A stretch of 22,397 nucleotides of DNA from positions 1 through 22,397 of IMG/VR virus record IMGVR_UViG_3300020468_000083; one strand, 5' to 3'. The notes under the pieces were generated by a model. That model was not told the DNA's origin and ran no database searches. It was given only the letters and a program-made list of their open reading frames with translations. Source of the stretch: a virus. Of this stretch, positions 2,490 through 14,798 are shown piece after piece (within the stretch, counting starts at the first letter, position 1; each line of letters starts with the position of its first letter). The position numbers and the translations under genes were made by a program.

Positions 2490-5400
2490 TTATCTCAATG
2501 CTAGTATTAATGGTGTAACTTCTGCTTGAATTGCCCGACTGAAATCTCTACCTCTAATTGTTGAAGTTGTTTGATCAATTTGAATTCCTTCACCAATGTC
2601 AAAATTACCTTTCTGGTCAGTAGAAGTAAATGGTATTTGTGCCCCTTCCGAAGCGACAATTTCATTTGCTTTTATGGGTATTGCACCCTGCAGGGGTGTC
2701 GATCTATTTATGTCTGTACCCGTGCCAACATATTCAAAGGAGTGAGAACTTGTTAGTATTCGACTAATTCTTTGTAATGAGAATTGATCACCAGGAAATA
2801 ATTCATATGGTATAAATTCATTGAATGTAATAGTGCTCAAACCAACTTTCTCTTGTCCAACTCCAACTACATCTGTTGCAGATTCAACAGTAAAGAATAT
2901 TGGTGACATAACAGCAGTTGCTATTCCAGTGTTACCCTCAACAGAAACAACAATATTTTGTGTTGGAAGATAGTTTCTTCCTTGTGCGATAACATCAATT
3001 GATGTTAATGTACCAGTAGCATCAACTGTTGCGGTTGCTTCTGCAATAATTGACTGTGGTCCTTTTGGTTGTTGAGTTCCATCAGCATCTATGATTAAAA
3101 CACTTGGAGGATTGATCGCACTAAATCCTGTAAGATCTGCGCCTTCAATAAATTTAATTGATTCTAATTGTTTTAGAGGTTCTTGAAGAACACCAGTTCC
3201 ACTAACATCTGGATAATTATCTAAATCTATTTTAAAGAATAATGCCTGACCATCAAATGCTCTTCTTGGATTACTCTGATCATCAAGAACATTAGCACAA
3301 ACGACAGTATCTTGTTCTCCAGCACTGGTGCTACTAACAAGATCTCCTGCAGGATTTGTGTTACTTACAATACCTGTAAATTGTGTAGATCCTAATCCTA
3401 CTGCAACTAAACCAAAGTTACCGAATGATGAGTTTGAGTTAGTCAAGTCACATTGTGCACCTGTATCTGCATAAATTCCAATGTCACAGTTAATTGTAAA
3501 GATAGAAACTAATTGTGCATACGCATCATTTGTAAGTGAAACTCCAATTCCATTCTCATTATATTGTGTAAATGAATCGCAAACCATTGATTTCAGATCT
3601 GCACCAATTGATGATGCAGTCGCATTATTACCATCAATCTTCATTCCAATACTACCCGTCATAAAGTTGGTACAGTTTCTTACATATGGTGATCTCCATC
3701 TTCCACTCAGACCTTCAGTTGCAGGACCAGGATCAGTAAATCCACTAACTGCACTTTCAGATCCAGCAGGTGGAGGGAATGCCACACAAGCAGCATTTGT
3801 ATGATCTACTCCAACATTCGTTCCACCAAAGTTTAAGTTTTCAACCAAACATCCTCTTCTTACATGGAAAATATCTTTATTAGGATTACCTGCCTGAATA
3901 ATAACTAATCTTAGATCCTCTCCTGTAACTGTAACATCTGTTCTCAAACCAATTGGATTGTTTTCAATATAAATTCCTGGTCTTACTTTTATTGTATCAG
4001 TTTCGATTGCAACTGCAGCTGCTCCTCCAATGGTTGCCTTTGCATCACCTTCAAGTAATCCACTATTATTATCATTACCATTTTTAGATACCCATATTGT
4101 TCTCTTTGTTTGTACACCAGATGGTCTCCAAGATACACCAGCACCGACTGATGCAAGTCTATAATCTGTTTGTGCAGCACCTACACCAATATTTCCATTT
4201 ACGTCTATTAAATTTGAATCTAATTCAACTGTTCCTACAAATTTAGAATCTTGACCAACATTTAAATTTTTCTCAATTCCAACACCACCATCAACTACTA
4301 ATGCACCAGTGTCTTTATTCGTACTATCTGTTGTTCCTAAAATTTTAGTATCATCACCGACAAATAATTTTTTAGCAATACCAACACCACCATCTATGAC
4401 TGCAGCACCAGAAGTAGTATCTGTTGATTGTGTTGTATCATCTACATCCAATCTTCCTGCAACTGTTGCATCTCCTCCGATGTTTGTATTCTTCTCAATA
4501 CCAACCCCACCCTCAACAATCAAAGCACCACCATCTTTATTATTTGATTGAGTAGTTGCTTCTATCTTTGTTTGTCCGCCAACAAAAAGTTTTTTACCAA
4601 TAGCAACACCACCAACTACCTGTAAAGCTGCTACAGCATTAGAAGCAGTTGCTTCAGTATCTTTTTCTACCTTAGTATCACCACCAACAAATAATTTCTT
4701 GACAATTCCAACACCACCATCAATTTGAACAGAAGCAGTTGCATTAGAAGAAGTTGCTTCTGTAGTATCATTAAATGTTGCTTTACCATCTACATCTAAT
4801 GTATTATTAAGTGTTGTAGCACCATCTACATCTAATGTTAAATTAAGTGTTGTGGCACCATCTACGTCAAGTGTATTGTTGAGTGTTGTGGCACCATCTA
4901 CGTCAAGTGTATTGTTGAGTGTTGTGGCACCATCTACATCAAGTGTGTTGTTGAGTGTTGTGGCATCATTTACATTTAACGTTCCGTTTACATCTAAATC
5001 AAATTGTGGATTATTATTATTAATACCAACCTTGGTCATTCTATAGATCGATGCATTTGCACCACTTCCATTAAATCCCCATAAATCATTTGTAAATATG
5101 GTTGACAAACCAGTGCCTGGAAAAGTTGAATCAGCAGCAGTCGGTCTTAAAGTATCAGTTCCCAGTCCAAGACTATTTCTTTGAACAAAATTTATGGTTG
5201 AAAACGATTGTGCAGCACCAACAGTATTATGATTTTCATCGGTTGGAAGAAATTGTCCTTCATCTTGTATAAAGATACCTTCATCAAAACCTGGTGTAAG
5301 TGCTACCCATTTGATTCCTAATTCATCTCTTCTCAACCAATAATTGTTTGCACCAGGTGAACCTGAAGAGTCATAAATGTTTCTTGATATTGCAATACTA

Positions 5401-6086
5401 CCATCAATGCCAAGTCTTAATATTCCTTCTGCATTATCATTAACATTTAATATTCCAGATGCTAGTGGTATCGAATCTGGTTGTGATGTTCCAATACCAA
5501 CTCTTAATGTGTCAGTGCCAAGGCCACTAATTATATTAAAAGATGTATTATTTCCTATCTGTTCAAAAGATGTTCTTGGTTGTGTGGTTCCAATACCAAT
5601 TCTTCCAGAATGAGTTACGTTCAGTGATGTAGTAGTTCCAATACCTACTTGAAATAATGTACTTGGTGAAGTTGTTCCAACACCAACTCTACATGGATCG
5701 ACATGAATTGTTAAACAATCATCACCAACCTGAAATAATGAAGCTGGTTGTGTAGTTCCAATACCAATACGACCAGCATAAGTTCCTGAATTAATTCCCG
5801 AAAGAACATTTCCACCTACACCAATATTCAGTCTGCCATCTAAAAAATCAACATTATTAAAAAATGTACTTACTCCAGTTGATTCGGTGACACCAGTTAT
5901 CTTAAGTCGATTTAAATTAGATTGATTACTTACTGTTAAATTTTTTACAACTAAATTATCAAAGTTTATATTTGCATCAAGATTATCGATTATAAGTTTT
6001 CCAGCAACTTCTATATCCTTTAAAAAAAGAACTTTTTCATTAAATTGTGCTTCGTTACCTGTAACAGTTCTTTCGAAAGGATTCAT
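2490..6086 (-). CDS. Large repeat-rich tail fibre protein with beta-helix domain (1198 aa)
   Basis: Domains in order: an N-terminal region (1-100) with KNLTV/LKITGV beta segments; four (V/I)G(V/I)GT(T/S)xP motifs (about 107-203); a linker domain (210-365); five contiguous 12-residue repeats ATTLNNTLDVDG (375-434); five diverged repeats of about 35 residues built around GGVGIxKxLFVGG (about 441-618); then the motif WVSKNGNDNNSG (665-676), which typically opens a right-handed pectin-lyase-like beta-helix and here leads into a long Asn/Gly/Thr-rich helix (to about 930). The C-terminal region (930-1198) ends with FDIGEGIQIDQTTSTIRGR and a short hydrophobic tail. The architecture indicates a trimeric fibre or receptor-binding protein; the beta-helix may contact or process a surface glycan, but no catalytic residues can be assigned. 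It lies two bases after the small spike gene, as expected of a hub-to-fibre operon. Confidence 0.8.
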   Translation of the reverse strand: MNPFERTVTGNEAQFNEKVLFLKDIEVAGKLIIDNLDANINFDNLVVKNLTVSNQSNLNRLKITGVTESTGVSTFFNNVDFLDGRLNIGVGGNVLSGINSGTYAGRIGIGTTQPASLFQVGDDCLTIHVDPCRVGVGTTSPSTLFQVGIGTTTSLNVTHSGRIGIGTTQPRTSFEQIGNNTSFNIISGLGTDTLRVGIGTSQPDSIPLASGILNVNDNAEGILRLGIDGSIAISRNIYDSSGSPGANNYWLRRDELGIKWVALTPGFDEGIFIQDEGQFLPTDENHNTVGAAQSFSTINFVQRNSLGLGTDTLRPTAADSTFPGTGLSTIFTNDLWGFNGSGANASIYRMTKVGINNNNPQFDLDVNGTLNVNDATTLNNTLDVDGATTLNNTLDVDGATTLNNTLDVDGATTLNLTLDVDGATTLNNTLDVDGKATFNDTTEATSSNATASVQIDGGVGIVKKLFVGGDTKVEKDTEATASNAVAALQVVGGVAIGKKLFVGGQTKIEATTQSNNKDGGALIVEGGVGIEKNTNIGGDATVAGRLDVDDTTQSTDTTSGAAVIDGGVGIAKKLFVGDDTKILGTTDSTNKDTGALVVDGGVGIEKNLNVGQDSKFVGTVELDSNLIDVNGNIGVGAAQTDYRLASVGAGVSWRPSGVQTKRTIWVSKNGNDNNSGLLEGDAKATIGGAAAVAIETDTIKVRPGIYIENNPIGLRTDVTVTGEDLRLVIIQAGNPNKDIFHVRRGCLVENLNFGGTNVGVDHTNAACVAFPPPAGSESAVSGFTDPGPATEGLSGRWRSPYVRNCTNFMTGSIGMKIDGNNATASSIGADLKSMVCDSFTQYNENGIGVSLTNDAYAQLVSIFTINCDIGIYADTGAQCDLTNSNSSFGNFGLVAVGLGSTQFTGIVSNTNPAGDLVSSTSAGEQDTVVCANVLDDQSNPRRAFDGQALFFKIDLDNYPDVSGTGVLQEPLKQLESIKFIEGADLTGFSAINPPSVLIIDADGTQQPKGPQSIIAEATATVDATGTLTSIDVIAQGRNYLPTQNIVVSVEGNTGIATAVMSPIFFTVESATDVVGVGQEKVGLSTITFNEFIPYELFPGDQFSLQRISRILTSSHSFEYVGTGTDINRSTPLQGAIPIKANEIVASEGAQIPFTSTDQKGNFDIGEGIQIDQTTSTIRGRDFSRAIQAEVTPLILALR
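4233..4766 (-). repeat. Five diverged ~35-residue coding repeats in the fibre gene
   Basis: This part of the 1198-residue fibre encodes five successive units with the core GGV(G/A)IxKxLFVGGxTK. The cores sit near residues 457, 492, 526, 566 and 600, separated by Thr/Ser/Asn/Asp-rich linkers. The copies differ at many positions, so this is an old duplication compared with the 12-residue repeats next to it. Confidence 0.75.
4785..4964 (-). repeat. Five tandem 36-bp coding repeats (12-aa fibre repeat)
   Basis: Units begin at 4785, 4821, 4857, 4893 and 4929, and a sixth diverged half-unit begins at 4965. Each encodes ATTLNNTLDVDG in the fibre. The units at 4857-4892 and 4893-4928 are identical base for base and the others differ by a few bases, so copy number has probably changed recently by slippage or unequal recombination. 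Each unit is 36 bp, so gain or loss keeps the reading frame. Confidence 0.9.
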
Positions 6087-9020: not shown

Positions 9021-10367
9021 TTAACCGCCGTAAAACCCAAATGAATCTCTAACTATCTTCATAGAAGTATATGAACCATCTGGATCAAAATGATGGCACA
9101 ATTCCTTTATTATATATTTACCACTGATATCAGGATCTAATTCACTCGAATCTTCTCTTGATACTTTTGGGAATTCACAAGTAATTACGTTACCAGCTCT
9201 CAGATCAGTATTACATGGAATTGTCATACTTATAGTTTGAGTAAGTAAAATATTATATCTCATTGTAGATTGAGACTGATATTTACTAGCATCAGCATTG
9301 ATATCTCTTGATATTCCTCGATCAAGTGTCCCAACATCTAAAATGCCAGTAAATATACGAGTCGGAAGATTATCCAAAGTTCTTTCTGCTTCATCTGATA
9401 CCTTAGGAAGTTCAATTTCTTTTGAACCAAGTTTTTTAACATTAGATTTTTCAAATTTAAATTTACCCTCTTCAGGTGTAGTAAATCTAAAATTTAATGG
9501 ATTAAAAAAGAGTTGTTGACTTGAATAAGTTCCTAATCTTAATTTTTTTAATAAATCTTGATTCTTATCTACAGAGTACTTTAATATTCTATAATCATTA
9601 TCACGATCAACTGAACTTTTATTCACCTCTGTATAAACGTATGTTGCTACAGATTCTTGCTCAATCATATCATCAATTGATCTGAATTGAAATCCATCTT
9701 GAGTTTGATAAAATAAAAATCCTGCAGTCTTATCTCCAGATTTTGATGGTACTGATTTAGATGCTAACCATACAAGAACAGAAAATGGTTTTTTAAGATT
9801 GCCAATAAAATTATATTTGTTACTTGTAGTATCAACCTTGATACGAAGTGGGTCAATTTTTAGTATATCTTTTAAAATTTTATTTACCGATGTTGATATA
9901 GCACCTGTATATTTTCGAACTACTCTGGCAGTTTCGTTTGTAATTGCCTCTCTTGAAACTAAATTAAGTAGAAAACTTTCTCTTTGAGTTTCTGAAAGAA
10001 CATCAGTAATACTTGAAACGTAAAGATATTTCATTGGATCACTGGAAAAGTTTATTCCTTTTTTGTCTTCACCATTATATGATTTACCTCTATCAAGTAT
10101 TTTTAAAACAAGTCTTTCACCACCTCTTAAAGGGAGACCACCATATATTGATTGCTTTGCCCCATCAGATTTAGTTGAATCTGTTTTATCTTTTGGTGCC
10201 ATTGAATCACCAGTGTTGATGACTCTAATTTTAGCAGTGATTGTAGGTGAAAATATATCTTCATAATAATCAACAGAAACCGTACCTAATCGAAGATCAG
10301 CAGTTCTTTCCTGATCGTTTGACTCTACCGTTAGTATTTCATATAGTGATGGATTTGTTGCTGACAT
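9021..10367 (-). CDS. 27: gp27-like baseplate hub protein (448 aa)
   Basis: The protein starts MSATNPSLYEILTVESNDQE and has alternating beta strands throughout. An early segment reads DYYEDIFSPTITAKIRVINTG, followed by GGLPLRGGERLVLKI, a layout seen in gp27/gpD-type hub proteins that form the ring between tail tube and spike. The C-terminus has ISGKYIIKELCHHFDPDG, resembling the end of hub domains that describe attachment to the spike. No membrane segments are present. The length is a little above T4 gp27 (391 residues). Its neighbours support the call: tape-measure-like proteins upstream and the gp5-like OB-fold protein downstream. The start overlaps the stop of the 451-residue gene (TAATG). 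Sequence identity to T4 gp27 itself is not obvious by eye, so the name is a positional and architectural homology call. Confidence 0.65.
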   Translation of the reverse strand: MSATNPSLYEILTVESNDQERTADLRLGTVSVDYYEDIFSPTITAKIRVINTGDSMAPKDKTDSTKSDGAKQSIYGGLPLRGGERLVLKILDRGKSYNGEDKKGINFSSDPMKYLYVSSITDVLSETQRESFLLNLVSREAITNETARVVRKYTGAISTSVNKILKDILKIDPLRIKVDTTSNKYNFIGNLKKPFSVLVWLASKSVPSKSGDKTAGFLFYQTQDGFQFRSIDDMIEQESVATYVYTEVNKSSVDRDNDYRILKYSVDKNQDLLKKLRLGTYSSQQLFFNPLNFRFTTPEEGKFKFEKSNVKKLGSKEIELPKVSDEAERTLDNLPTRIFTGILDVGTLDRGISRDINADASKYQSQSTMRYNILLTQTISMTIPCNTDLRAGNVITCEFPKVSREDSSELDPDISGKYIIKELCHHFDPDGSYTSMKIVRDSFGFYGG

Positions 10368-11722
10368 TATGTGTACGCTAGATTTGATAAAAATTGCTGT
10401 TCTATCATAGTATTTAATGAATCACTCTTTATCATCATTATCTTAGTACCTCCACCTGATTCTGATGATACCATAGAATTATCTTCATCAATAACTACAA
10501 TTTGTTTTTTCTTCCGAGAAGGAGTCAATTTAGATATTGGTTGATCCATTGATATATTTGATACCTTTGGAGTTTCTTTTTTTGAAGAAGATGTTTTTGC
10601 CATAGGTTCAAGAGAACCAGTATATGTAGAATTATCGGATTGAACTGGTGATTTGTAAGAGTTCGTTTCAGACCCAACTTTTTCTGATTGTGTTATCTCA
10701 GGAACATCTTTTTCATCCTTTACTTTCATTGGTGTTTTTGGTGCCGATCCACTCTTAATATCAATAACTTTTTCTTTTTTCCCTATTGGTATTTTTTGCT
10801 CTGTCGGAGTAGAGACTCCTGTTCCTTCAGATCCAACTTTTGCAATTTCTTTTTTAGCTTTATCTATCGCAACATCAAAAGTTTCTTTTCCTTTTGAAAT
10901 TTCAGATCCAACTTTATCTAAAGTTCCTTTAATACCTTTTACATCAGTTGGTTCCTCTGGTTTTTGTGGTTTACCCTCTTCTAACTTACCATCTTTTGCA
11001 ATTTTCTTTGGATCCTCTTGTTTTTTCTTTTTAATTAATCCAAGACCACCCTTAATTTTCTTTAATATATTTCCAAATGCATTCTTAATACTATCAAAAG
11101 CACCTCTAACTACATCACCAATTTTTGAAATATCAAATGATTTTAGTGTATTAAATGCATTGGATATGGCACCTCCTATCTTTTTAAAGAAATCACCAAT
11201 ACCAGTGAAAAAATCTTTTATTGACTGACCTATATTTTGAATTGATTTAATAACTTTCTTAATAAAGTTGACAAGTTTTAATCCAGTATTTACTAACCAC
11301 CCAATCAAAATAGTTGAAAGAAAATTAATTATTTTACCTAAAATTCCTCCTGGTTTTTTAAGTCCTTTCTGTGCGTCTGGTTTTTGCTTTGAATCTTTAT
11401 TTTGTTCTAATAATTTTTCTCTTTCATTTCTTCTCTTCTGTTCTGCCTCCTTTGCACGTCTTTTCTTATCCTTCATAAACTTGTCTTTATCAATCTTTTT
11501 ACTTTTCGTTGTATTTGATTTCACTTTTTTCATAGTCACTCTTGATTTTTTTAATACCATCCCTCCTTTCTTAACAACTGAACCACCAGACTTTACACCT
11601 GCTTTAGCAATAGATCCACCCATTTTCAAACTACTTTTTACGGCAACTTTTGCCCCTACTTTGGCAGTAGCTAATGCCCCCTTTAAGAATCCGCCTGCGA
11701 TAGCTGCTAATGGTGCTGGCAT
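10367..11722 (-). CDS. Lysine-rich tail protein, tape-measure candidate B (451 aa)
   Basis: The N-terminus (1-60) is Ala/Gly/Lys-rich and amphipathic. Residues 60-122 are extremely basic with coiled-coil character. A strongly hydrophobic segment spans about 124-155 (GGILGKIINFLSTILIGWLV). A series of short amphipathic helices with Phe/Ile/Lys follows (155-232), then a long charged, disordered-looking region. The C-terminus is SLNTMIEQQFLSNLAYT. The hydrophobic segment aligns with that of the upstream 492-residue protein, so the two look paralogous. Basic coiled coil plus hydrophobic helices between a tail chaperone and the hub is the usual character of tape-measure proteins, which fill the tube and contact the host membrane. 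I therefore infer a tape-measure or hub-core role (T4 gp29-like), but no family motif proves it. Confidence 0.5.
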   Translation of the reverse strand: MPAPLAAIAGGFLKGALATAKVGAKVAVKSSLKMGGSIAKAGVKSGGSVVKKGGMVLKKSRVTMKKVKSNTTKSKKIDKDKFMKDKKRRAKEAEQKRRNEREKLLEQNKDSKQKPDAQKGLKKPGGILGKIINFLSTILIGWLVNTGLKLVNFIKKVIKSIQNIGQSIKDFFTGIGDFFKKIGGAISNAFNTLKSFDISKIGDVVRGAFDSIKNAFGNILKKIKGGLGLIKKKKQEDPKKIAKDGKLEEGKPQKPEEPTDVKGIKGTLDKVGSEISKGKETFDVAIDKAKKEIAKVGSEGTGVSTPTEQKIPIGKKEKVIDIKSGSAPKTPMKVKDEKDVPEITQSEKVGSETNSYKSPVQSDNSTYTGSLEPMAKTSSSKKETPKVSNISMDQPISKLTPSRKKKQIVVIDEDNSMVSSESGGGTKIMMIKSDSLNTMIEQQFLSNLAYT

Positions 11723-11723
11723 T

Positions 11724-13202
11724 CTAGGTCACCGTATTATAATTCATTTGTGAATATAATGTAAGAAAATTACTAGGATTTGAAGATGCAATAGATGGTA
11801 CTTCAGTTTGATTCGAATCTGCTCCTGGTGCTTTTCCACCACCTTGTTGTGATGAGGTTTTTTTGTAAATTATTTCTGGTTGAGAATCTGCAACTGGATC
11901 TAAATTTTTTTGAGAAGTAACTTTAGATATTTTAGTATCATTTTTTGGTGATATTTGAACACTTGAATCACTAACTTCAGATACAGATTTTGGTGCTGAA
12001 CTAGATTGACCACCAGTTATTTTTGCCTCATACTTTGCTCTAATATTTTCTTTTGTTTCTGCCCATTTTACCCTCGCATCTGCCCAATGTTGTTTTCTTG
12101 CAATACCCCTCTTTGGAGATGTTTCTTTAACTTGTTTCCACCATTTATCATGTGTTTCGTTTATTTCTTTATTCATTGAATCTCGAACATTATCTAATCT
12201 ATCTCTTTCTTTTTTAAATTCCATATATGCTGCTTTTTGTTCCTCAGTTCCATGTTCCATTACATCAACATTTTTACCATCTATTTCAATTTTTCCACCA
12301 GAAGTAACACCCATATCTTTTAAATTTTTCAATCTTTCATTATTCTTTTTATGTGCATCTCTAAATTCTTTACCTCCTGCCATTGCGGTTCTTATTGCAT
12401 TAGCACCCATGACAGCACCACCAATACCAGCTATTACAGCTAATGTAATTAATCCTGGCGGTGATAGTAAAAATCCTATGATTGCAGTTCCAACAGTTGC
12501 AAGCATGCTGGCAATCGGAGTAATTAAAGCAGGTATGGCACCAAGTCCACCACTCAATGCTAACATGATACCTCCAGCTATACCAAGTGTTGAAACTATT
12601 GATAGTGCAAAACCAGCAAATGCTTTGTAATCTCCAGCCATGAATGATTTTATTGCCTTCAAACCTTTATCAAACAAAAATCCTCCAAAGATTAACATAA
12701 AGGCATCTTTTAACTTTGATAATATACCACCCATTGCCTTACCAGCAGATTTCATTGGAGATAGTAATTTATTTTTTAAAGAATCTGGAGTCTTTTCTAA
12801 TAATTTTTCTTCTTCACCTGCTTTATCTTTTTCGTCTGCTATTTTAGCGTCTCTTTTTTGTTTATCTTCTTGTTCTTGTTTTTTCTTTTTTTCTTCAAGT
12901 AAGGAATCTGATATTTTTCTTACAGTTTCTTGAAGATTGGATAATGATTTTTGAATATTTTCAACAGTAGAAGCTAAGTTAGAACCAGCAGCAGTTTTTG
13001 ATGTTCCAGTAAGACTACTTTTAGAAATTTTTGATTTTTTTATCTTGAGTGCTTCTTTTGCATCTATGGATGATTTAACATCAGAAAAACTTTTCCCTTT
13101 GTATATTCTTCCAGAAGATGATCTTCTAATTTTTCCAACATTAGGATCCACTCCAGTGATTGCTGGACTTAGTGTTGGTTTTAGAGAAATGTTAGATGCC
13201 AC
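11724..13202 (-). CDS. Tail protein with coiled coil and hydrophobic helices, tape-measure candidate A (492 aa)
   Basis: A basic N-terminus is followed by a predicted coiled coil (about 75-137, very rich in Lys/Glu/Gln). A first hydrophobic segment lies at 158-188 and a long Gly/Ala/Leu/Ile-rich stretch at 195-271 could form about three membrane-spanning helices. A charged helical region follows (275-400) and then a Ser/Lys/Asn-rich tail ending FLTLYSQMNYNTVT. This combination fits a tape-measure or DNA-ejection protein. The start is a GTG at 13200-13202, overlapping the end of the 59-residue ORF by 11 bases with no good ribosome binding site, so translation is probably coupled to the upstream frame. 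It shares a related hydrophobic segment with the next gene. An alternative is a structural hub protein with no tape-measure function. Confidence 0.5.
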   Translation of the reverse strand: MASNISLKPTLSPAITGVDPNVGKIRRSSSGRIYKGKSFSDVKSSIDAKEALKIKKSKISKSSLTGTSKTAAGSNLASTVENIQKSLSNLQETVRKISDSLLEEKKKKQEQEDKQKRDAKIADEKDKAGEEEKLLEKTPDSLKNKLLSPMKSAGKAMGGILSKLKDAFMLIFGGFLFDKGLKAIKSFMAGDYKAFAGFALSIVSTLGIAGGIMLALSGGLGAIPALITPIASMLATVGTAIIGFLLSPPGLITLAVIAGIGGAVMGANAIRTAMAGGKEFRDAHKKNNERLKNLKDMGVTSGGKIEIDGKNVDVMEHGTEEQKAAYMEFKKERDRLDNVRDSMNKEINETHDKWWKQVKETSPKRGIARKQHWADARVKWAETKENIRAKYEAKITGGQSSSAPKSVSEVSDSSVQISPKNDTKISKVTSQKNLDPVADSQPEIIYKKTSSQQGGGKAPGADSNQTEVPSIASSNPSNFLTLYSQMNYNTVT

Positions 13203-13371
13203 TTTGTTGTTGTTGTTTTAAATTTTCTTCTTCAATATATTGTTCCAAAAGAGCAATATATACATCCTTTTCCCACGGAATCATATTTTCAATTTCAGTT
13301 AATGAGTATTTATGATGTTGCATCAAGGCAAAGTTGATTTTAAAGTATGACGCTAAATCAATGTGCGCCAT
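13192..13371 (-). CDS. Small ORF in the -1 frame of gp26, likely frameshift extension (59 aa)
   Basis: Read by hand: MAHIDLASYFKINFALMQHH at the start, a helical middle with ENMIPWEKDVYIALLEQYI, then a Glu/Gln-rich end. It is 59 residues. The ATG lies two bases after the gp26 stop codon, and the AGG before it is only one base from the ATG, too close for a good Shine-Dalgarno. Its frame is the -1 frame of the gp26 gene and stays open back through the slippery heptamer there. I infer that it is expressed at least partly as the C-terminal extension of gp26 (fusion of about 300 residues), in the way gpT extends gpG in lambda. Independent translation by coupling is the alternative. It occupies the position where cyanophage maps have a small hub-assembly gene, but resemblance to T4 gp51 is not evident. 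Confidence 0.7.
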   Translation of the reverse strand: MAHIDLASYFKINFALMQHHKYSLTEIENMIPWEKDVYIALLEQYIEEENLKQQQQSGI

Positions 13372-13386
13372 ACCTACTCGAAAAAA
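13334..13386 (-). promoter_or_regulatory. Candidate -1 programmed ribosomal frameshift signal
   Basis: On the minus strand the gp26 gene ends AGT TTT TTC GAG TAG. The heptamer T TTT TTC (13386-13380) is in the correct X XXY YYZ phase, two codons before the stop. After a 6-nt spacer (GAGTAG), GTATGGCGC (13373-13365) pairs with GCGTCATAC (13353-13345): 9 pairs with one G-U and an 11-nt loop. Within the loop TTGATTT (13361-13355) is fully complementary to AAATCAA (13340-13334), so an H-type pseudoknot is possible, although the 4-nt third loop is short. The -1 frame leads through CGA GTA GGT into the ATG of the 59-residue ORF. Confidence 0.7.
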
Positions 13387-14093
13387 CTTGACAATCCCTC
13401 CAATACTACTTCAGATTCCACTTTTGTTTCTGGATTTTTAATCTTAAGTGTATGAGATAACTTAGGCATTGTCTCAAAGAAAGTTTCAATTTCTTTGAAT
13501 TGTTTTGAACTTAGTTGTTCAATAAAATCATTAAGTTCTTTCTTTGTACAGTCAGATGCATTCCAAGATTCTTCTTCATTATATACTTGATCAATACATG
13601 AAGTAATCATATTGAATGATTGGGAAACATTAATTCCTTCTTCAACACTAAAATTATTTGAAATAAATTCAGACAAAGATGGATATTTCATTCTTAATAT
13701 TAAATTCTCATCTAATTTAATATCTCTACTATGTTTTGGGTTTTTATGAACTTTGATTTCATCAAGAGCAATTGTAACTGGAACCTGAGTTGTTTCATCA
13801 TCAGGACAGGTGATTATAACATCAACGTTTTCACCTACAGATTTTCCACGAATATTTAAGAACAAATACTCTATATCAAATGTTGATAATTTTTCAACTT
13901 TAGTTCCTCTAGTTAAAATACAATTTCCAATTACAGTTTTAATTGCATTGGTAATTTGCTTTTGATCCTCTGATTCCATTGCGATAATCAGAAGTTTTTC
14001 CTCTTTTACTAAAAATGGTCGATATTTAATTTTTCGATCACTCGATGGTAGTACCATCTCATAGGTTGGAGTTGCAATTTTTGGTAATGGCAT
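13374..14093 (-). CDS. 26: gp26-like baseplate hub / tail assembly protein (239 aa)
   Basis: The N-terminus MPLPKIATPTYEMVLPSSDR followed by YRPFLVKEEKLLIIAMES is characteristic of the T4 gp26 family (T4-type baseplate protein) as found throughout cyanomyoviruses. A beta-rich first half contains an ENVDVIITCPDDE stretch; the second half is helical and acidic (NDFIEQLSSKQFKEIETFFE). The last residues are GLSSFFE, encoded by the slippery run. T4 gp26 is 208 residues and is needed for hub assembly. The gene sits between a tube-fold protein and tape-measure-like genes, the place of tail assembly chaperones in lambda, Mu and P2. I therefore infer a chaperone-type role with two products, gp26 and a frameshifted form. 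A T4-type late box starts 33 bases upstream of the ATG. Confidence 0.8.
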   Translation of the reverse strand: MPLPKIATPTYEMVLPSSDRKIKYRPFLVKEEKLLIIAMESEDQKQITNAIKTVIGNCILTRGTKVEKLSTFDIEYLFLNIRGKSVGENVDVIITCPDDETTQVPVTIALDEIKVHKNPKHSRDIKLDENLILRMKYPSLSEFISNNFSVEEGINVSQSFNMITSCIDQVYNEEESWNASDCTKKELNDFIEQLSSKQFKEIETFFETMPKLSHTLKIKNPETKVESEVVLEGLSSFFE

Positions 14094-14118
14094 AATGTTT
14101 ACAGCACTTCATTATTTT

Positions 14119-14126
14119 TATTTATA
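14119..14126 (-). promoter_or_regulatory. T4-type late promoter box TATAAATA
   Basis: The minus strand carries an exact TATAAATA, the T4 late consensus recognised by gp55 sigma with gp33 and the clamp. It lies 6 bases after the gp54-like stop codon and 25 bases before the gp26 ATG. Transcription from here would begin about 14112 and serve gp26 and the hub, spike and fibre genes downstream. It is the only exact copy I found in an intergenic position in the window. Confidence 0.7.
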
Positions 14127-14132
14127 GTGGTT

Positions 14133-14798
14133 TTAGAAGAGTCTAAAATTCTCGTTATCACCTCTTTGTACATTCAAACTAAAATCTTTTCCTGCAACGT
14201 ATCTCTCATAATTAAATGTACAATTAACCTGTAAAGTATCAGAATTTCCATATTGTACAGGTGTTGAAGATAAACTAATCGGAAACATTCCTATAAATGA
14301 ATATTCAAGTTCCTGATCATAATCACGTTCAAATTTTACAATTTTAACTCTATCACATTTATATCCACTAGCACCTCTTGGATACCTCATGCGATAAAAG
14401 TATGCAGGGGATGATTTTGAGAAGAATGAATTTTTACTTATTTCTGAACCACTTGAAATATATTCAATCCAGTGTTCTAAGAATTTAATCATCTTGTAAT
14501 CCGAATCAACATAAAAAGATAACACTAATTCTGTAAAAATTCTAGTATGTGCAAATTTTTCCTGAACTCCAGTAAAATTACCAAATATATCACTTGTTCC
14601 TAGAGTGCTGCCTGGTATTGAAGCACTATTACATAATAATCCAGCATTTTCTATTATAAATCTTCGGTCAACACCCTTACTTGCAAGATAATTAAATAAA
14701 TTTCTTGATAATCCATCAAAAAATACTTGATAGTGTGAAGTTTGTGCCGTGTTTGCAAGTTTATTTCTAAACTCACCTATTTTCTTAGGACGAACCAT
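14133..14798 (-). CDS. 54: gp54-like baseplate tail-tube initiator (221 aa)
   Basis: The protein has the tail-tube fold pattern. LVLSFYVDSDYKMIKFLEHW aligns with the T4 gp54 segment around LVISFRMDSE, and FIGMFPISLSSTPVQYGNSD, followed by a beta strand and YVAGKD, aligns with the gp54 end around FTGCIPISVSAPELSYDGD. It is shorter than T4 gp54 (320 residues), mostly by loss of N-terminal sequence. In T4, gp54 sits on the hub and gp48 caps it to start tube polymerisation; a gp48 gene lies divergently just downstream on the plus strand. The main tube protein gp19 shares the fold and is the alternative, but gp19 normally sits next to the sheath gene gp18, which is not here. The start ATG lies in the shared 37-bp divergent spacer. 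Confidence 0.7.
   Translation of the reverse strand: MVRPKKIGEFRNKLANTAQTSHYQVFFDGLSRNLFNYLASKGVDRRFIIENAGLLCNSASIPGSTLGTSDIFGNFTGVQEKFAHTRIFTELVLSFYVDSDYKMIKFLEHWIEYISSGSEISKNSFFSKSSPAYFYRMRYPRGASGYKCDRVKIVKFERDYDQELEYSFIGMFPISLSSTPVQYGNSDTLQVNCTFNYERYVAGKDFSLNVQRGDNENFRLF

Follow-up and report, generated by a model that had tools for sequence, protein, structure and literature searches.

The window analysed here, a 22,397-base IMG/VR virus fragment, is the tail region of a marine T4-like cyanophage. Judging from comparison of many related loci, it very probably uses programmed −1 frameshifting to make a short and a long tail assembly chaperone, as lambda does with G/GT. The earlier note on this DNA had proposed such a frameshift, joining gp26 to a small downstream ORF (gp51), as a T4-like counterpart of lambda G/GT, and comparative sequence evidence strongly supports the proposal. 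In the envisaged mechanism, a ribosome translating gp26 would reach the heptamer T TTT TTC, where a stem 4–6 nt downstream would assist; a fraction of ribosomes would slip back one base, avoid the TAG codon and read on through gp51. The two predicted products are gp26 (239 aa) and gp26–gp51 (about 300 aa), and homology and gene position suggest that these short and long chaperones would escort tape measure and hub proteins in tail building. The features concerned are as follows.

14133–14798, minus strand: tail-tube-like gene, upstream of gp26 (PF23849, phrog_45).
13374–14093, minus strand: gp26 gene, 239 aa, putative short chaperone form (TAC-N; PF12322, 1.3e-74; phrog_150).
13380–13386, minus strand: slippery heptamer T TTT TTC, in gp26 phase.
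13374–13376, minus strand: gp26 stop codon TAG, bypassed by the proposed −1 shift.
13365–13375, minus strand: 5′ arm of the stem, 11 bp when extended, with a 9-bp core at 13365–13373; contains the gp51 ATG (13369–13371).
13343–13353, minus strand: 3′ arm of the stem; compensatory changes at the pair 13366/13352 (alignment columns 21/35).
13334–13361, minus strand: candidate pseudoknot (13355–13361 with 13334–13340), not conserved.
13192–13371, minus strand: gp51, 59 codons, putative C-terminal extension of the long form (phrog_634, 'baseplate hub assembly catalyst', 7.3e-28).
11724–13202, minus strand: 492-aa ORF downstream, overlapping the end of gp51; sits where a tape-measure-type gene would.
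10367–11722, minus strand: 451-aa ORF, second downstream of gp51, with a weak tape-measure profile match (phrog_58, 1.4e-5).

The 3′ end of gp26 reads AGT TTT TTC GAG TAG and is followed by GT and the ATG of the 59-codon ORF. The heptamer that the earlier note had placed near the stop codon is indeed found at 13386–13380, in gp26 phase and of the X XXY YYZ form expected of a −1 frameshift site. Read in the −1 frame, the sequence is TTT TTT CGA GTA GGT ATG GCG (FFRVGMA...), which continues as FFRVGMAHID... through gp51. This frame is open and coding, its phase is conserved, and the predicted fusion has 300 residues, in line with the anticipated size. The first sign that both ORFs form one protein in some phages is a profile match: gp26 itself stops at column 233 of phrog_150, a gp26 profile of 282 columns, and the 59-codon ORF also matches that profile just beyond, at columns 242–278 (1.9e-5).

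On the minus strand, the gene order is tail-tube-like gene, gp26, 59-codon ORF, 492-aa ORF, 451-aa ORF, a phrog_350 tail protein and a hub/lysozyme gene. For a chaperone pair, the upstream neighbor is thus a tube-like gene, and the PF23849 match agrees with the 'tube-fold protein' suggested from sequence alone. The downstream genes, previously described as tape-measure-like, deserve that name only weakly, through the phrog_58 match of the second ORF; in the profile search, the 492-aa ORF directly downstream of gp51 had no tail profile match. Elsewhere in the window, a 1198-aa ORF (2490–6086, minus strand) contains near-identical tandem stretches, LDVDGATTLNNT, and is probably a tail fibre or baseplate-associated protein.

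For comparison we used the first 80 IMG/VR relatives (76–99% identity), relatives of P-SSM7, HTVC008M, S-PM2 and ValKK3, and named phages, in all 261 loci that fall into 99 gp26 clusters at 85% amino acid identity. In all 80 of the first relatives, T TTT TT is retained at this site and the −1 frame encodes gp51. An in-phase T TTT TTN occupies the same place in 258 of the 261 loci and 97 of the 99 clusters, counts that are not independent trials because clusters share descent. The exceptions among the 261 loci are RB69 (T-even type), Cygsa01 (C ATT TTC) and L172, a metagenome virus contig. Phages bearing the heptamer infect Synechococcus, Prochlorococcus, Pelagibacter, Sinorhizobium, Rhizobium, Aeromonas, Vibrio, Stenotrophomonas, Desulfovibrio and other hosts. 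By comparison with the 97 of 99 gp26 clusters, such a T6 heptamer near the stop codon occurs just once among 167 ends of other ORFs in these loci. Thus, in the alignment of gp26 3′ ends that the earlier note had recommended as a check, relatives keep the heptamer, the phase and the locus, and the attempt at refutation from sequence failed.

The constraint extends to silent positions. The codon preceding the heptamer ends in T in all 97 clusters (TCT 41, AGT 32, AAT 11, GCT 8, GAT 5), so that four amino acids are encoded there, always by T-ending codons; elsewhere in gp26 such codons account for 63% of Ser, 82% of Asp and 78% of Asn. Within the heptamer, TTC rather than TTT is kept in 91 of the 97 clusters. 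We also surveyed synonymous sites in 51 window-type sequences, in which 162 codon columns are both conserved and degenerate. Codon variation is near zero in eight of these columns. Six of them lie at or past the junction: two are the heptamer Phe codons, whose TTT TTC hardly varies at its synonymous positions, another is a TCA codon for Ser within the stem's 3′ arm, and the remaining three are deeper in gp51. On this pattern of conservation, the heptamer signal is real and old.

A separate motif, CATAAATA, lies inside gp51 (window 13307–13314, minus strand; codons CAT AAA TAY). Its CAT AAA codons are invariant at silent sites in window-type sequences, and the motif occurs in 76 of 97 clusters. 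The T4 late promoter is TATAAATA, which CATAAATA resembles, and the motif may be an internal late promoter for downstream genes.

Six nucleotides past the heptamer begins the 9-bp hairpin core described in the earlier note, in which GTATGGCGC (13373–13365) pairs with GCGTCATAC (13353–13345). One G·U and one A–U pair extend it to 11 bp, so that the stem starts 4–6 nt past the heptamer. In 51 window-type cluster representatives, 86% of the stem cells are paired, compared with 28–43% when the partner is slid. Moreover, alignment columns 21 and 35 covary, with U–A in 25 of the 51 sequences, G–C in 19, A–U in four, G–U in one and no pairing in two. Column 21 corresponds to the third position of an Ala codon; at column 35, a second codon position switches between Ala, Glu and Val. 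Silent changes thus follow amino-acid changes. Folding downstream of the heptamer has a mean z of −2.7 relative to synonymous-codon shuffles, against −0.24 for a control stretch of gp51; 71 of 97 clusters lie below −2 and 26 do not reach that value. At this position other lineages have strong stems of unrelated sequence; that of S-PM2, for example, has 14 bp without a mismatch. A conserved stem with compensatory changes is what would be expected of the stimulatory structure of a −1 frameshift site. No Rfam match above the gathering score was found in 12800–14200.

The possible pseudoknot fared differently from the stem. The 7-bp complementarity between loop and downstream sequence exists, yet its conservation is absent: 54.6% of cells are paired, compared with 53.5% in shuffles and 49.6% after a one-column slide. 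It is probably non-functional.

In the window lineage, the gp51 ATG lies just past the gp26 stop codon, so coupled reinitiation could be envisaged, with ribosomes stopping at TAG and restarting at the ATG two bases on to make gp51 as a separate small protein. An ATG is present within the first nine codons past the slip in the window and in 63 of 97 clusters, and TAATG or TGATG overlaps occur in many T4-like phages. However, in 29 of the 97 clusters, including those of P-SSM7, HTVC008M, Aeromonas phage 65 and Desulfovibrio phage 7757, the gp51 domain is conserved but this stretch offers none of ATG, GTG and TTG, leaving frameshifting as the sole evident route to the domain. The earlier observation that the 59-residue ORF lacks a proper ribosome binding site also generalizes, since none of 58 ATG-bearing clusters has a Shine–Dalgarno-like core ahead of the gp51 ATG, and in window-type sequences this ATG is paired inside the stem. 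Finally, coupling leaves both T TTT TTC and the T before it unexplained, and gp51 of T-even phages is the fused form. We consider it very unlikely that gp51 is made in this way alone. Free gp51 might instead be made by reinitiation alongside the frameshift fusion in ATG-bearing lineages, an arrangement compatible with frameshifting as the main explanation. All 51 aligned window-type sequences keep the ATG unchanged (each was chosen for having one), and the fusion does not require this Met. On the other hand, the ATG is also required for stem pairing (columns 16–18), which could explain its conservation, and other lineages manage without it; such dual use seems to us rather unlikely.

The mixture of frames could also arise in the mRNA, by transcriptional slippage on the T run and with no slipping of the ribosome. 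There are six T on the coding strand and polyT can slip in principle, although six is short for polymerase slippage. This mechanism fits poorly with the retention of TTC in 91 of 97 clusters where TTT would lengthen the run, and with a covarying stem at the distance typical of ribosomal frameshifting; we find it scarcely credible. Programmed −1 ribosomal frameshifting remains our preferred explanation. The heptamer, its phase, the stem, their conservation and the homology of the fusion to T-even gp51 can be read directly from the sequences, and we infer that slipping occurs, at some rate, and that the products have a chaperone role.

Frameshifting also bears on how gp51 has been described. Sullivan et al. 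(2010, PMC3037559) noted a similarity between cyanophage gp51 and the C-terminus of other gp51 proteins, with about 200 residues absent from its N-terminal side. The frameshift accounts for this stump, as the missing part would be gp26. The annotated gp51 of P-SSM7 (L082:2301–2396) begins at an internal Met in the middle of the conserved domain, and under many cyanophage matches gp51 is unannotated ('none'). In many annotated genomes, gp51 is thus truncated or missed.

In RB69, Ursula, Thanatos and Aes012, gp26 and a 250-aa gp51 are separate divergent genes, and no heptamer is found at the end of RB69 gp26. T-even gp51 consists of a full PF12322 domain (1.2e-57 in RB69) plus the gp51 extension, and when a profile was built exclusively from predicted frameshift products, its alignment with RB69 gp51 ran across the junction. 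Short and long forms with a common N-terminal part are therefore present as coding capacity in the window and as separate genes in T-even phages. A phylogenetic tree places frameshift-type gp26 proteins apart from both gp26 and gp51 of T-even phages (96/93 support). A single duplication on the T-even branch would fit this pattern, but the tree is only suggestive owing to long end branches. In L172 (1501–2391), on a 236-kb metagenome virus contig, gp26 and gp51 are in one continuous frame because the slip region is shorter. It may be a natural fusion or, as this is a single metagenome contig, possibly an assembly error. The model of the L172 fusion has much the same order of elements as that of T-even gp51 and the same four final helices.

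The Ackermannviruses Det7, phiMAM1 and Ds23CZ, together with Vibrio K397 and Cygsa01 (loci L268, L269, L270, L273 and L094), keep the −1 phase without the heptamer. They read ATT TTC, GTT TTC or CTT TTC, so the T TTC tetramer remains and might allow weaker, single-tRNA slipping. In Det7 and phiMAM1, gp51 is also without a near start. On balance, we lean slightly towards a scenario in which the gp26–gp51 frameshift is ancestral in the T4 superfamily. T-even phages would have replaced it by a gene duplication in which the first copy stops at the shift site while the second is fused through it, and the Ackermannvirus-type group would use the weaker T TTC or another route. The stem would have been reinvented with unrelated sequences while the overlapping code was preserved.

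A chaperone identity of gp26 is suggested by structure. In sequence, PF12322 is the sole family above threshold for gp26, Pfam Phage_TAC models gave no match, and aligning gp26 against PDB sequences revealed no convincing relative. The model of the gp26 domain (pLDDT about 93 over most of the domain) has as its best PDB match the HK97 tail assembly chaperone 2OB9 (Z 7.4, below the tool's safe level; rmsd 3.9, 84 aligned residues). Next are 3FGX (Z 7.2) and 3KLU (Z 6.7), before a drop to 4.6. Both are structural-genomics proteins; 3KLU is prophage YqbN, which we take to be a member of the prophage tail-chaperone family. Foldseek with the model on PDB alone returned nothing with E < 0.001. The T-even gp51 model matched nothing in PDB above Z 4.8 and did not recover chaperones, a result that excludes nothing. 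In our assessment, gp26 would work like a lambda G-type chaperone but is not a member of that family by sequence. PMC3004832 counts T4 gp26 and gp51 among the hub assembly chaperones and describes gp51 as absent from the final particle and as essential, with function unknown. In the GenBank record of Konradin, gp26 and gp51 each carry the name tape measure protein assembly chaperone, and a protein of Citrobacter phage Moon is called a tape measure chaperone. With the proposed frameshift, the T4 gp26/gp51 pair gains a function-level reading.

The earlier note had held that this arrangement was undescribed for gp26 of T4-like cyanophages, which was too strong. According to later citations, Vladimirov et al. 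identified these chaperones in T4-like phages in 2022. As that work is summarized elsewhere, some T4-like phages use a short gene and a longer fusion gene instead of frameshifting (PMC10885494), and in T4-like phages the short chaperone gene contains polyT slippery sequences (PMC12846349). From these summaries, the core idea is most likely already public. Our literature searches, in which the 2022 paper is represented by papers citing it, found no direct report of a gp26/gp51 frameshift. Novelty here is limited to breadth, stem covariation, startless gp51 and the Ackermannvirus-type group without the heptamer; given the 2022 publication, the gain is in detail, breadth and a conserved RNA signal, not a new kind of system.

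Judged from its title and from papers citing it, the 2022 work concerns the same kind of gene pair in T4-like phages. With lambda G/GT, the window shares two frames downstream of a tube or tube-like gene (in lambda followed by the tape measure gene, here by tape-measure candidates), a −1 shift, here predicted, close to where the first frame ends, and a short and a long chaperone, again predicted here. It differs in its heptamer, which is T TTT TTC here and G GGA AAG in lambda. Furthermore, gp26 has no Pfam tail chaperone match, and the gene 26/51 proteins are named for hub assembly. T4 and RB69 differ in having gp26 and gp51 as separate divergent genes, without the heptamer at the end of RB69 gp26, but are alike in that gp26 matches the short form and gp51 the fused form. 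In P2, Mu and the chaperone locus of Vandenendeviridae/Andersonviridae (PMC12846349), the tails are likewise contractile and the shift likewise lies near the end of the short chaperone gene; in the Vandenendeviridae/Andersonviridae locus it occurs, as proposed here, at a polyT motif.
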